A DNA stretch of 64,000 bases from assembly GCF_041361345.1 (NCBI RefSeq), contig NZ_JBGKAD010000001.1:2542001-2606000 (forward strand), read 5' to 3'. The notes under the pieces were generated by a model. That model had not been told where the DNA came from. It did not search any database and saw only the letters and a list, made by a program, of their open reading frames with translations. A program made the position numbers and the translations under genes. Shown here piece after piece: positions 17,563 through 51,059 of this stretch. Source of the DNA: Halobaculum sp. MBLA0147. GTDB taxonomy: Archaea; Halobacteriota; Halobacteria; Halobacteriales; Haloferacaceae. The first letter of the stretch is position 1, and each line of letters starts with the position of its first letter.

Positions 17563-18540
17563 GTGACGCCAGTGACGCTGCACGAGCCGGCCCACCGCGA
17601 GGCGTTGTGGGAACTGGAGGCGGCGTTCGACCGCGGCGACGTGGTGACGGTGTACGGCCCGTGTACGGTCGAGTACGACGGCCGTGCGACCTCCTCGCTC
17701 GGCGAGGGGCGGCGACTGGTGGTGCTCAAGCCCGACGGCACCGCCTTGGTCCACACCGACGAGGGTCACGAACCGGTGAACTGGCAGCCCCCGGGTTCGA
17801 CACACCACGCGGCAGTACGGGACGGCCGCCTGCGGCTCCGTAGCCGCCGCGAGAACCCCGACGAGCGGCTGGACGTGCGGTTCGCGGCCGTCGACCACCT
17901 CGTCGCGTACCCGGTCAGCGGTCGTCGGCAGGTGGCGGTCGCGGGGACGGAGGCGGACCTGAAACGGCGAGTCGTCGACGAGCCGTCGCTCGTCGAGGCG
18001 GGGTTCACGCCGACGGCGACCGAACGCGAGACGGCGGCGGGTGCCGTCGACGTGTTCGGCCGGGACGCGGACGGGCGCCCGACGGTCGTCGAACTCAAGC
18101 GGCGACGCGTCGGACCCGACGCCGTCGGGCAACTCCGGCGGTACGTCGACGCGCTGCGACGCGAACGCCGGGGGCGCCGTGTGGAAGTCGACGACTCGGG
18201 CGGGTCTGGCGTCGACGCGGAGTCCGTCGACGACTCGGACGGCGACACTACCGACGACTCCGACGGCGACCCGGTGCCACCGCACGTCGACGACGCCCCC
18301 GACGGCCCGGACGACGACCCCAGGGTCCGTGGCGTCCTCGTCGCGCCGTCGGTGACGGACCGTGCGGCCGACCTGCTCGCCGAGGCGGGGTTCGACCACG
18401 TCGCGCTCGACCCGCCGACGCCGTCTGCCGACGACACCGGATCGTCCGACGGCACCGATTCGTCCGACGACACCGGGCCGTCCGACGGCGGCGGTGATCC
18501 CGGAGACGCCGAGAGCGGGGGCGACGGCGAGGCGCAGTGA
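17563..18540 (+). CDS. nucS: Endonuclease NucS (EndoMS-type mismatch nuclease)
   Basis: RecB-like nuclease of 325 aa that cuts both strands at G-T, T-T and G-G mismatches in a PCNA-dependent manner in archaea lacking MutS. The N-terminal DNA-binding barrel (31-80, [32 protein letters not shown]) is complete, and the C-terminal nuclease domain has the Asp163 / ELK (177-179) signature. Odd features are an acidic disordered insertion at 209-252 inside the nuclease domain and a 40-residue Ser/Asp/Gly tail. The usual PCNA-binding peptide is not evident at the tail. GTG start with a TTATTC promoter 27 nt upstream. A barrel paralogue is encoded at 48.6 kb. Confidence 0.9.
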
Positions 18541-45653: not shown

Positions 45654-47345
45654 TCACTCTGCCGTGCGCTCGTCGATGTACCCACGCATGCACTCGGGAC
45701 AGATATCCCCCTTCCGCATCGAGGAGCTGCCGACGGGCTCGACGTGTCCACACTCCGGGCAGTAGTACTCGTCGGCGGTCCCCGTGCGGGTGGCGGACAC
45801 GTCGGTGCCCGCTCGGCCGGCCGGTGTACCCGACGCTCGTCCGTTCCGTTCGACGGTGTCGGCCACCTCGCTGGCGTCGAACCCACCGGCGTCGTGCGTG
45901 CCCGCCCCGTTCCGTTCCTCGCCGGTCGACTCGGGCGTCCCGCCGACGAACTCCACGTCCTCGTCGGCCAGGGTCTCCGGGTCGACCTCCGGCTGTAACG
46001 ATCCGTCGACGGACACGTCCCCGCCGTCTGCCGCGTCCGGCGTGGCGTCGTACCCCTCGTCTCGACCGTCGTGGGAGGGCCAGCGACCGGTGTCGCCGGT
46101 CACGGAGCCGTCGTCGCCGACCGCCTCCGACGGATCGACCACGTCGCGGCGTGCCTCCGCGGCCGCGCCGGTCTCGTCGGCGGGTTCGTCGACGAACTCC
46201 GCGTCGTCGACCACCGCGCCGTCTCCGTCGTCGACCACCACGCCGTCTCCGTCGTCGCCTGCCCGTTCGTCGGGGGCCGTCGCGTCTCCTGCTCGTGGTG
46301 CGGTGTCGTCGTCGACACCGGCTCGTCTCGCCGTCTCGCTACCCGCCGTCGAGTCACCGTCGGTCTCCCCGCCCGCGTCGAGGAGCTCGGCGTCCTCCCC
46401 CTCCACGACCCGCGCTTCGTCACGTTCGTTCGTCGCCTCGTCGGTGCCACCCGTTCGGCGTCCATCGGTGTCGCCGGCGTGCTCACTCGCGTCCGCTCCA
46501 GACTCTCCGCCGGCCTCGTCACCGCCGCCCGAGCCACCGACGATCTCGACACCGTCGTCGTCTCCGTCGACGATCTCGACACCGTCGTCCCCGTCGACGC
46601 CGACGGGGCCGTCACCGGTCGTCGTGTCCGACGCCGGTGTCTGTGAGCTCTCGGCTGCCTCCGCCGGGTGGGTCTTGTCCGCCTCGGGCCACTCGCCCGG
46701 CCGTCGGTCGTCGGACGCTCCCGTCGAGTCGTCCGCGTCGTCGGCGTCGATGATCTCGGCGTCCTCACTCGCGGTCCCAGACTGGTCCGCCACGGGCGAC
46801 GGGTCGTCGGCCGCGGGGTCCGCCCGGCCGCCCGCGGTCGCCGACTCAGCTCCGGCTGCCGCTCGCTCGTCGCCCGACGCACCCGCACTCGGACCCGCCT
46901 TGCCGCCCCGACCACCCGTCGTCGACCGCGACTCGTCGAACGACCCGTCGCTCTCCGCCTCGTCGATGACGACCTCCACGTCCGTCTCCGCCGGGCGGTC
47001 GCCCGACTGTGCCGGCGTCTCGGGATCGTCGGGTCGTGTGACCGTCTCGGCGTCGCTCGGTCCTCCGACCGACGCGTCGTCACCCGCCGACGGTTCGGTG
47101 CGTGATGGTGTCTCGGTCCTTCCCCCGGTCGCCGGTGTCGACCCGTCGACACCCGCGTTCGCCGACGAGGTGGCCTCGGCGAGGCTCCGCACCTCGGTGT
47201 TCTCCGAGACGACGCGCGTCTCGCCACACCGGGTACACTCCTCGATCTCGGTCTCGGTGACGACGAGCTCGTCGCCCCGCTCCTCCCGCTCGCGCTCGGT
47301 TCGGGTCTCCCCGTAGTCGTGCCCGAGCAGACACCTGAGTCCCAT
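45654..47345 (-). CDS. DUF7093-like protein: two zinc ribbons joined by ~450 disordered acidic residues
   Basis: 563 aa. The N-terminal 45 residues (MGLRCLLGHDYGETRTERER, then CTRCGETRVVSEN) form a short zinc ribbon. Residues about 60-515 are almost entirely Asp, Glu, Gly, Ser, Thr and Ala, with recurring short hydrophobic beads such as VEIVDGDDDGVEIVG, AEIIDADDADD and VEFVGGTPE. The C-terminus is a second zinc ribbon with CPECGHVEP and CPECMRGYIDE. Similar proteins occur across haloarchaea without known function. The beads look like short linear peptides for a partner. TTTTAG 27 nt upstream fixes the ATG. Confidence 0.75.
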   Translation of the reverse strand: MGLRCLLGHDYGETRTEREREERGDELVVTETEIEECTRCGETRVVSENTEVRSLAEATSSANAGVDGSTPATGGRTETPSRTEPSAGDDASVGGPSDAETVTRPDDPETPAQSGDRPAETDVEVVIDEAESDGSFDESRSTTGGRGGKAGPSAGASGDERAAAGAESATAGGRADPAADDPSPVADQSGTASEDAEIIDADDADDSTGASDDRRPGEWPEADKTHPAEAAESSQTPASDTTTGDGPVGVDGDDGVEIVDGDDDGVEIVGGSGGGDEAGGESGADASEHAGDTDGRRTGGTDEATNERDEARVVEGEDAELLDAGGETDGDSTAGSETARRAGVDDDTAPRAGDATAPDERAGDDGDGVVVDDGDGAVVDDAEFVDEPADETGAAAEARRDVVDPSEAVGDDGSVTGDTGRWPSHDGRDEGYDATPDAADGGDVSVDGSLQPEVDPETLADEDVEFVGGTPESTGEERNGAGTHDAGGFDASEVADTVERNGRASGTPAGRAGTDVSATRTGTADEYYCPECGHVEPVGSSSMRKGDICPECMRGYIDERTAE

Positions 47346-48584: not shown

Positions 48585-49640
48585 GTGCCAGCGACGACAC
48601 AGATCTTCGCCGGGCGGTGTACCGCACGCTTCACGACGGACTACACGCCGCGTGGCGACACACGACCGAGCGACGCCGGAGACGGCACCGCCTCGTGGGG
48701 CCTCGTCGAGAGCGCCGCCGAGCCGGGTGGGATCGGGTCCACGCACGACCGAGCGCCGCGAGTAGAGCCGAACGACGAGATGTACCTGACGGACGTGTCG
48801 TCACCCGACGAGAACACACCGTCCGACGAGAACACACCGTCCGACGAGAACGCCCCGTCGGGCGGCGACACGAGTCCGAGACGATCGGAGTCGACGTCGA
48901 GCGACGCGGGTGGTGAGGCCGACGGCGCGGAGGTGACGGACTCGGACACACGAGTGTACCACGGGCACGTCGTCGTCGTCCGCAAGCCGGACGACACGGT
49001 GTTGGTCCACGACGCGGACGGCTACCAGCCGGTCGCGTGGCTCACCCGTGCGGAGTCCGTGACGGTCGTCGACGACGGTGGCGGGGTGACGCTCACCGCC
49101 GTCGAGGGGGACGAGCGACTCTCCGTCGCGTTCGCGGACGCCTACCGGACGAGTCACCGCGTGACCAGCGCCGGACCGCCAGTGTCGCCGTGTCCCAGTT
49201 GCGGCGAGACGATGGTCCGAGCGAACGGTGGAGTACGCTGTCTCCGCTGTTCGACGGTGTACGCGCTCCCGTCGGGGGCGACGGTGCTCGAACGCCCGTG
49301 TTCGAGTTGTGGCGCCCCACGGATCAGACTCCGCCGCGGGCGGGTCTTGGAGCTGTGCGTCGACAGAGAGTGTGACCCGCTGGTCGACGCCGTCTCCGAG
49401 GCACTCGACGGCGTCGCGTGTTGTCCCGCGTGTGACTCGCCGTTGCGCGTGGAGACGTACCGCGGACGGCCGTTCCTCGGCTGTGCGGAGTACCCGTCGT
49501 GTGACACGACGTTCTCCATCCCGAACGGCGAACTCGCGGGTGACTGTACGTGTGGCCTCCCGCGGTTCCAACTGGACACTGGGAACCGGTGTCTCGACCC
49601 CACCTGTGACGCCGTCTACGACACGGGCGACGAGGAGTGA
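48585..49640 (+). CDS. NucS-like barrel fused to topoisomerase-type C4 zinc ribbons
   Basis: 351 aa. Residues 1-20 (MPATTQIFAGRCTARFTTDY) and about 127-160 (HVVVVRKPDDTVLVHDADGY, QPVAWLTRAESV) together match the N-terminal barrel of NucS, but an acidic insertion with 18-bp repeats separates the two halves. No nuclease domain follows. Instead four or so zinc ribbons occur (CPSCGETM/CLRCSTVY, CSSCGAPR, CPACDSPLRVETYRGRPFLG, CTCGLPRF/CLDPTC), the third being a topoisomerase I-type ribbon with GCAEYPSC. It is probably a nucleic-acid-binding protein. The GTG start is supported by promoter spacing and by homology of the first strand. Confidence 0.78.
   Translation: MPATTQIFAGRCTARFTTDYTPRGDTRPSDAGDGTASWGLVESAAEPGGIGSTHDRAPRVEPNDEMYLTDVSSPDENTPSDENTPSDENAPSGGDTSPRRSESTSSDAGGEADGAEVTDSDTRVYHGHVVVVRKPDDTVLVHDADGYQPVAWLTRAESVTVVDDGGGVTLTAVEGDERLSVAFADAYRTSHRVTSAGPPVSPCPSCGETMVRANGGVRCLRCSTVYALPSGATVLERPCSSCGAPRIRLRRGRVLELCVDRECDPLVDAVSEALDGVACCPACDSPLRVETYRGRPFLGCAEYPSCDTTFSIPNGELAGDCTCGLPRFQLDTGNRCLDPTCDAVYDTGDEE
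48805..48858. repeat. In-frame 18-bp tandem repeat, three copies
   Basis: Units of CCGACGAGAACACACCGT at 48805, 48823 and 48841 (last with GCCCC) encode repeated Ser-Asp-Glu-Asn-Thr-Pro inside the acidic insertion of the NucS-like protein. Confidence 0.9.
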
Positions 49641-49649
49641 CCCCCTCGC

Positions 49650-50252
49650 TCAGCTCTCGTCGTCGGGCCGGAGACTCGGGTCGACCTGTGTGGCGACCTC
49701 CTCGGAGAGGCCCGAGGCCTCCTCCAGCACCGCGGCCTCGTCGACCGCCGCGGGGTCGAAGTCGGCCGGCAGGAGGTTCTCGGGGTCCGACTGCGAGAAG
49801 ACGACTCGCTCGGAGTCGTCCAGCGGACGGAAGTATGTCCGCATCTCGCCGCGCTCGCCGACGCGCGACAGCATCACCTTCGCCTCCGAGACCGCGTAGT
49901 ACAGCGGGAACAGGACGGCGACCCCCGCGTCGGCGCTCTTCATCGCGACGACGAGGAACACCACGTCGCCCTGACTCGCGCGGTAGGCGTCGTACTCGTC
50001 GAAGTCGGTCTCGGCGACGGTCGCTTGGAGCGTCTCGAACTCGTCGCCGGGCACCAACACGTCGAGCCCGAGTCGGTCCACGTCGACCTCGGAGGCGGCC
50101 GCCGAGGTCGTCGGCAGCGCCGTCACGTCCCCTGGGTGGAGTTCGAGCGTCTCCCAGCCGGCCTCGCGGTACTCCTCGGCGGTGGCGGCCATGTCGTCCA
50201 TCACGTCGTCCCAGAACTCCTGGACGCCCGCCAACGGGTGTGACCCGGACAT
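49650..50252 (-). CDS. DUF7529-like haloarchaeal protein
   Basis: 200 aa, soluble. The start MSGSHPLAGVQEFWDDVMDD and AATAEEYREAGWETLELHPG are conserved in haloarchaea (remembered as DUF7529). A core with VFLVVAMKSADAGVAVLFPL and AVSEAKVMLSRVGERGEMRT suggests an alpha/beta domain, ending in an acidic helix. The CTTTATT element at 50276-50282 is about 27 nt before the ATG. Only 9 nt separate it from the convergent zinc-ribbon gene. Function unknown. Confidence 0.72.
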   Translation of the reverse strand: MSGSHPLAGVQEFWDDVMDDMAATAEEYREAGWETLELHPGDVTALPTTSAAASEVDVDRLGLDVLVPGDEFETLQATVAETDFDEYDAYRASQGDVVFLVVAMKSADAGVAVLFPLYYAVSEAKVMLSRVGERGEMRTYFRPLDDSERVVFSQSDPENLLPADFDPAAVDEAAVLEEASGLSEEVATQVDPSLRPDDES

Positions 50253-50369
50253 ACACGGGTGATCTGCTCCCACCCGAATAAAGACCGTCGGTCCGTGACG
50301 AACGGGACGGGCAGGGTCCACTCTCTCGACTCGCCGAACGTTCAAGCGCGCTCGTGCCCACCGGTGGGT

Positions 50370-51059
50370 ATGGGGACGGCACTGGAGCCGCGCGAGGCGC
50401 AGGTCACCGAGGTGCTCGACAGACTGTACGCGGAGTACCCGGACAGCGACATCGCGTTGAACTTCTCGACGCGACTGGAACTGCTGGTGGCGGTGGTCCT
50501 GTCGGCGCAGTGTACCGACGAGCGAGTCAACGAGGTGACGGCCGACCTCTTCGAGGAGTACCAGACGGCGGCCGACTACGCCGCCGCGACCGAGGAGGAG
50601 TTGGCCGACGCCATCTACGGAATCACGTTCCACAACAACAAGGCCGGCTACCTGCGCGAGACCGGCGAGATCCTCGTCGAGGAACACGACGGCGAGGTGC
50701 CGGACACGATGAGTGCGTTGACCGACCTGCCGGGCGTCGGCCGCAAGACCGCGAACGTCGTCTTGCAACACGGCCACGACGTGGTCGAGGGGATCGTCGT
50801 CGACACTCACGTCCAGCGGCTCTCGCGGCGCCTCGGGATCACCGAGGAAGAGCGCCCGACGGCCATCGAGGAGGACCTGCTGCCCGTCGTGCCCGAGGAC
50901 GACTGGAAGATGTACACGCACCTGCTGATCTCGCACGGCCGCGAGGTGTGTTCTGCGCGGAACCCAGACTGTGCGGCGTGTGTCCTCGCCGACGTGTGCC
51001 CGTCGGAGAAGGGCGACGGCGCCGTCGACCTCGCGAGCGGCGAACGGTGGGAGGCGTGA
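50370..51059 (+). CDS. nth: Endonuclease III (DNA glycosylase/AP lyase)
   Basis: Base-excision repair enzyme removing oxidised pyrimidines. 229 aa. Helix-hairpin-helix LPGVGRKTANVVL with catalytic Lys126, catalytic Asp145 in VVDTHVQRLSRRLG, and the C-terminal [4Fe-4S] loop Cys194-x6-Cys201-x2-Cys204-x5-Cys210 are complete. LLVAVVLSAQCTDERVN at 38-54 is typical. TTCAA at 50341-50345 is 27 nt before the ATG, so the mRNA is leaderless. Confidence 0.95.
   Translation: MGTALEPREAQVTEVLDRLYAEYPDSDIALNFSTRLELLVAVVLSAQCTDERVNEVTADLFEEYQTAADYAAATEEELADAIYGITFHNNKAGYLRETGEILVEEHDGEVPDTMSALTDLPGVGRKTANVVLQHGHDVVEGIVVDTHVQRLSRRLGITEEERPTAIEEDLLPVVPEDDWKMYTHLLISHGREVCSARNPDCAACVLADVCPSEKGDGAVDLASGERWEA

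Follow-up and report, generated by a model that had tools for sequence, protein, structure and literature searches.

A haloarchaeal protein with a NucS-type barrel and four zinc ribbons, a candidate accessory subunit of an ASCC3/Brr2-like helicase

Overview

The protein described here, from Halobaculum sp. MBLA0147, combines a NucS_N-type barrel with four zinc ribbons and belongs to a family that is near-universal in haloarchaea. It probably serves a haloarchaeal SF2 helicase, one similar to ASCC3, Brr2, and Slh1, as an accessory subunit. This reading rests on domain make-up, gene order, complementary fusions in related archaea, and phylogenetic profile, and it is from these that we infer physical binding, stimulation of the helicase, the substrate (DNA or RNA), and the pathway. 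Neither the family protein nor an ASCC3/Brr2-like archaeal helicase was found described in the open-access literature, as judged by titles and the first lines of abstracts. A near-universal haloarchaeal protein gains in this way a testable candidate partner, a helicase of archaea akin to ASCC3 and Brr2, and the reading as a NucS antagonist, tempting from sequence resemblance alone, is corrected. Throughout, the window is the whole stretch of 64,000 nucleotides that was analysed.

Domain Architecture

The window protein contains a match to Pfam NucS_N (PF21003) at residues 123-190 (25.3 bits, cut-off 23.9) and a match to Zn_ribbon_Top1 at residues 280-314 (31.2 bits, slightly below the cut-off of 32); each of these families matches 47 of the 47 family members scanned (E <= 1). 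The first-pass annotation had placed topoisomerase-type zinc ribbons where NucS has its nuclease, and this is borne out: four Cys4 ribbons can be read from the sequence (Table 1), and Pfam searches up to E 10 return no NucS_C nuclease domain, which the window's own NucS does possess. The same searches return no Toprim or topoisomerase catalytic domain. A typical family member outside the genus is about 245 aa long and consists of an unbroken barrel and four Cys4 ribbons, with the cysteines of ribbon 1 gone in some members of the alignment (e.g., L020, L021, L031, and L032).

Table 1. Features of the window gene, with the NucS gene of the same genome for comparison.
Feature	Position in window	Strand	Basis
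Whole gene, NucS_N-type barrel and four zinc ribbons	48585..49640	+	ORF of 351 aa with GTG start; Pfam, alignment, model
Barrel strand 1 (residues 1-18)	48585..48638	+	Family alignment; model strand 4-18 superposed on EndoMS
Disordered acidic insert, lineage-specific, in first barrel loop (residues 19-121)	48639..48947	+	No counterpart in relatives outside the genus; pLDDT; composition
18-bp tandem repeat, 3.1 copies, within insert	48805..48859	+	TRF
Remaining barrel (residues 122-195), conserved KPD...LVHD..GYQP..WLTR block	48948..49169	+	Pfam NucS_N, alignment, superposition
Zinc ribbon 1 (C203, C206, C219, C222)	49182..49265	+	Sequence; alignment, cysteines missing in some relatives
Zinc ribbon 2 (C239, C242, C258, C263)	49293..49379	+	Sequence; Cys invariant in 47; Auto_anti-p27 match in 47/47
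Zinc ribbon 3, topoisomerase I type (C280, C283, C300, C306)	49416..49523	+	Pfam Zn_ribbon_Top1 at 280-314; Cys invariant in 47, with exceptions at C283/C280
Zinc ribbon 4 (C321, C323, C336, C341)	49539..49613	+	Sequence; Cys invariant in 47
True NucS/EndoMS of the genome, comparison only, outside the proposed system	17572..18540	+	NucS_N and NucS_C well above cut-off; start inferred from ORF

An AlphaFold2 model of the window protein, built from 47 sequences, gives the barrel and the ribbons at high confidence. VIA-align places model residues 1..195 on residues 26..122 of EndoMS with Z 12.1-12.2 and an rmsd of 2.0-2.1 Å over 92-93 residues; across the EndoMS/NucS structures the values are Z 12.0-12.2 and 1.7-2.1 Å over 89-93 residues. 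The next-best fold for the barrel, the N-terminal domain of CARM1, reaches Z 6.5. Because the model superposes on EndoMS/NucS, the barrel is real, and residues 1-18 form its first strand. Superposition of the predicted fold on NucS had been named beforehand as the test that could refute the initial assignment of the first 20 residues and a later block to the NucS barrel; the barrel proves NucS-like, and the assignment stands, with the Z score of 12, the 25.3-bit NucS_N match, and a BLASTP alignment to the window's NucS (38% identity over 60 aa, E 2e-6). In a Foldseek search with the full-length model, the insert blurs the result, and the best E is 3e-3.

The insert at residues 19-121 contains 25 D/E and 51 S/T/P/G/N residues among 103, and pLDDT falls below 50 at residues 34-84, 86-90, and 92-110 of the model. 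Its tandem repeat has a period of 18 with 94% matches in TRF. Among the 30 family members read, the first strand continues directly into the remaining barrel outside the genus, with no long insert. Congener G003 has a shorter insert in the same loop with its own, different three-fold repeat, congener G001 has only a few extra residues in that loop, and the family protein of G059 carries an insert in another loop. The long insert is peculiar to this genus: a barrel split by an acidic insert with three 18-bp repeats, as originally described, is correct for the window gene, and the term split barrel applies within the genus, to this species and its congeners, but not across the family. A functional role for the insert was dropped, given its absence from relatives and its different or minimal form in G003 and G001, and the genus tolerates it as a disordered loop. 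The window's NucS (17572-18540) likewise has an acidic stretch of low complexity within the nuclease part, and its tail is acidic as well, which suggests that expanding disordered acidic loops are a habit of the lineage. Elsewhere in the window, positions 45654-47345 of the minus strand encode a very long acidic low-complexity protein of 563 aa with a zinc-ribbon-like C-terminus.

Distribution of the Family

The family is a core chromosomal gene of haloarchaea, since it is near-universal in the order and absent from plasmid and phage records. A profile search at E 1e-10 matches 363 of 392 genomes of the order, a count that includes at least one topoisomerase match (G045, E 1.4e-11, profile positions 175-246), and 336 of 345 high-quality genomes. 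A scan of named records yields 270 stretches; among the best 80, all but one have haloarchaeal titles, the exception being titled "uncultured archaeon". No match occurs among 72,556 plasmid and 50,697 phage records. A mobile or defence element was considered and dropped, as plasmids and phages lack a match and the protein has no PADLOC match.

Genome G155 retains a family-gene remnant at the end of an ORF (L198, 11195-13381, plus strand), in which the first barrel strand is fused to the last ribbon, and this remnant sits between the helicase gene and endA. The family gene was lost there secondarily, by internal deletion, because the remnant survives beside endA. In G059, the N-terminal barrel of the family occurs a second time as an incomplete copy (L202, 7660-7998, minus strand), some 3 kb away from the complete gene.

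The Partner Helicase

Sequence scores of the candidate partner are 523 bits against ASCC3, about 491 against SNRNP200, 480 against Slh1, and 239 against Hel308, and for the genome's own Hel308 the order is reversed (498-503 bits to the best Hel308-type chains versus 241-244). By these scores, the partner is classified as a second Ski2-type SF2 helicase of ASCC3/Brr2/Slh1-like character, not as Hel308, which was dropped as a candidate partner. In the helicase, of about 780 aa, Pfam finds DEAD, Helicase_C, and Sec63 once each, a single cassette; the tandem cassettes of eukaryotic ASCC3, Brr2, and Slh1 were not found in the haloarchaeal helicase, which is accordingly called like these proteins and not a member of their group. 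Relatives of this helicase act on both DNA and RNA: Brr2 functions in splicing, and ASCC3 functions in DNA unwinding and ribosome rescue.

The helicase is present in 72 of 73 family-positive genomes (18/19 and 54/54) versus 5 of 21 family-negative genomes, the latter comprising 20 of the 29 genomes without a family match and G045 (Fisher 7e-13, kinship ignored). The sole family-positive genome without it, G047, is 78% complete. Five family-negative genomes keep the helicase, and three of these (G130, G141, and G155) come from one family, in which they represent two genera. Deep lineages in which several of these genes are missing confound the profile.

Gene Neighbourhood

Neighbourhood counts come from the best 80 of the 270 named loci; these are the ones nearest to the first alignment row and bias the counts towards close relatives. 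In 66 of the 80 loci, the helicase gene precedes the family gene on its strand, and these 66 are all the loci in which it was found in the flank; the gap is 68-5004 bp. A gene for a HAD-type hydrolase stands between the two on the opposite strand in 40 of these 66, so that there is often no single transcript. Downstream of the family gene are endA (tRNA-splicing endonuclease) in 59 of the 80 loci and trpS (tryptophanyl-tRNA synthetase) in 55. A second set consists of 41 of the 73 genomes, those with both gene coordinates recorded; helicase and family gene lie within 5 kb of each other in 26, and in 25 of the 26 they share a strand and the helicase comes first. The two genes are unlinked in several other genomes.

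The helicase orthologue of the window genome lies 48 kb downstream of the family gene, with the HAD gene still following it, whereas in congeners G001 and G003 the helicase adjoins the family gene at 182 bp and 926 bp upstream, respectively. This difference marks a local rearrangement in the window species. The downstream neighbours of the window gene are a DUF7529 protein gene (49650-50390, minus strand) and an endonuclease III homologue (50259-51059, plus strand), and the usual endA-trpS pair does not adjoin it.

Complementary Fusions in Related Archaea

Both parts of the family protein occur elsewhere as C-terminal extensions of the same helicase. In archaeal family f18, which belongs to the same phylum but not to the order, the helicase carries four ribbons at its C-terminus in all 7 genomes listed, and these ribbons match positions 98-244 of the family profile at E 1e-34 to 1e-37. 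At the three f18 loci read, the helicase is 969-979 aa long, ends in four ribbons, and adjoins endA and trpS. One and the same chain can thus hold helicase and ribbons. In another archaeal family, f25, two of four genomes encode a helicase of 997 or 1013 aa with a C-terminal NucS_N barrel (29.4 and 31.3 bits, cut-off 23.9) and an HRDC domain. The other two have a barrel and HRDC protein alone (L205, 3880-4689, in G436; L206, 3213-4055, in G409), and an ASCC3-like helicase was not found in either genome.

With its barrel and ribbons both nucleic-acid-binding folds, the family protein could alternatively be a stand-alone factor that binds single strands, junctions, or tRNA/rRNA and has several partners, in which case the helicase, endA, and trpS would be mere neighbours in a housekeeping cluster. 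The frequencies of endA and trpS next to the family gene are about as high as that of the helicase, and G409 and G436 have the barrel with HRDC in the absence of the helicase. However, two complementary fusions to the same helicase and a sharp co-occurrence with it are unexpected for a mere neighbour, and this explanation is rather unlikely.

Relationship to NucS and Topoisomerase I

A simulation study of EndoMS describes a pocket in which the flipped base is sandwiched by Tyr41 and Trp77 and hydrogen-bonded by Asn76 (PMC6829318). All three residues are kept in 29 of 29 haloarchaeal NucS proteins. Across the 110 aligned family members, the Trp77 equivalent is kept in every one, the Asn76 equivalent in none, and the Tyr41 position is Phe in 83; Arg44 and Arg98 of EndoMS, near which the alignment has gaps, are left out of this pocket scoring. 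The alignment indicates that the mismatch contacts of EndoMS are not all present in the family barrel, and a site for an unpaired base or a single strand is possible. Of the initial proposal that the protein recognizes the same mismatched or single-stranded DNA as NucS, the mismatch half loses its footing with Asn76, and the single-strand half remains tenable with the invariant Trp. The family protein probably binds nucleic acid.

In an unrooted barrel tree of 41 rows, with bootstrap not settled and Thermococcus as the one non-haloarchaeal NucS, the family groups with the f25 barrels, two of four of which are helicase-fused, and a 100/98 branch separates both from every one of the 21 NucS barrels, haloarchaeal or Thermococcus. 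Because the tree sets the NucS barrels apart, the family appears not to be a haloarchaeal NucS that lost its nuclease, and its description as such a paralogue is not supported. An older shared ancestry of the family and NucS barrels is likely.

NucS was searched with a single query at E 1e-20, which a very divergent NucS could escape, and was detected in 76 of 87 family-positive genomes (25/31 and 51/56) versus 3 of 9 family-negative genomes (Fisher 8e-4). The 11 family-positive genomes without detected NucS (6/31 and 5/56) include eight that are at least 98% complete (G023, G039, G046, G059, G118, G132, G223, and G297). Co-occurrence with nucS, proposed at the outset as a check, is therefore present as a correlation and is less clean than that with the helicase. 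In the neighbour clustering, nucS is not among the conserved neighbours of the family gene, and in the window the two are about 30 kb apart.

The first-pass annotation had suggested that the protein is a helper or antagonist of NucS, which would occupy mismatches without cutting them. The shared barrel fold at Z 12, the invariant base-stacking Trp, and the presence of NucS in most family-positive genomes are in keeping with such a role, but it is made very unlikely by the retention of the family in genomes without detected NucS, the absence of Asn76, the position of the family barrel outside the NucS group, and the lack of conserved linkage to nucS. Least probable of all is an accessory DNA-binding factor of topoisomerase I with a borrowed ribbon module: Zn_ribbon_Top1 matches all 47 members and the family profile also matches topoisomerase-sized ORFs, but at about 1e-9 to 1e-12 at best, far weaker than the f18 helicase-fused ribbons, which match across all four ribbons, and no topA was recognized among the conserved neighbours.

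Proposed Mechanism

As an accessory subunit of the ASCC3/Brr2/Slh1-like helicase, the family protein would dock on the helicase through its zinc ribbons, while its barrel, placed next to the motor, would grip nucleic acid that is unpaired or single-stranded. The gripping barrel would use the conserved base-stacking Trp and would do so without the mismatch-contacting Asn. This grip may raise helicase loading and processivity. The division of labour would be like that of TRIP4 on ASCC3, in which the zinc finger docks and the nucleic-acid-binding domain sits at the exit. The endA and trpS neighbours point towards RNA, and the barrel and ribbons recall DNA proteins; because of these neighbours, a role in RNA metabolism or translation is about as likely as one in DNA repair.

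A more far-reaching and doubtful proposal is that haloarchaea possess a two-part counterpart of ASCC3-TRIP4/Slh1, in which a single-cassette helicase and a barrel-and-ribbon loading subunit would work on stalled ribosomes or structured RNA with the barrel reading unpaired bases, so that one ancient module would have been put to two uses, the mismatch pocket of NucS and this grip. A true helicase partnership would show how a one-cassette motor related to those of the spliceosome and of ribosome rescue may be loaded; the barrel that holds flipped-out mismatched bases in NucS would then serve helicases as well.

Comparison with Known Systems

Hel308 is, like the proposed partner helicase, of the Ski2 type with Sec63 and winged-helix domains. 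The partner differs in its 523 bits to ASCC3 and 239 to Hel308, and the genome has a true Hel308 besides. The C-terminal ribbon domain of type IA topoisomerases shares with the family protein its tandem Cys4 ribbons, and ribbon 3 of the family is of the Top1 type; unlike these enzymes, the family protein lacks a catalytic domain, and its ribbons are closer to the f18 helicase-fused ones. EndoMS/NucS (PDB 5gke, 5gkj, and 2vld) has the same N-terminal PH-like barrel, of which the family keeps the KPD motif, the His, and the pocket Trp. In contrast to EndoMS/NucS, the family protein has no nuclease domain and no Asn76, falls in a separate barrel group, and has four ribbons instead.

TRIP4 (ASC-1) resembles the family protein in combining a zinc-binding part with a small nucleic-acid-binding domain, and the family protein is tied by genomic context to an ASCC3-like Ski2 helicase. 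The zinc finger of TRIP4, which we take to be Pfam zf-C2HC5, scores 11.9 bits on the window protein, below the cut-off of 25.8, and is not among the 25 Pfam families that match most of the 47 family members; homology to TRIP4 through the zinc finger was rejected on both counts. The window protein also has no Pfam match to the ASCH domain. In ASCC3-TRIP4, the zinc finger of TRIP4 alone suffices for docking on ASCC3, and the nucleic-acid-binding ASCH domain is required for stimulation (2.3-fold) and for DNA binding that is about ten times tighter (PMC10076317). In the family protein, the domain order is reversed, a NucS barrel stands in place of ASCH, and the ribbons are of another type. The family protein and TRIP4 are thus best compared as putative analogues, not homologues.
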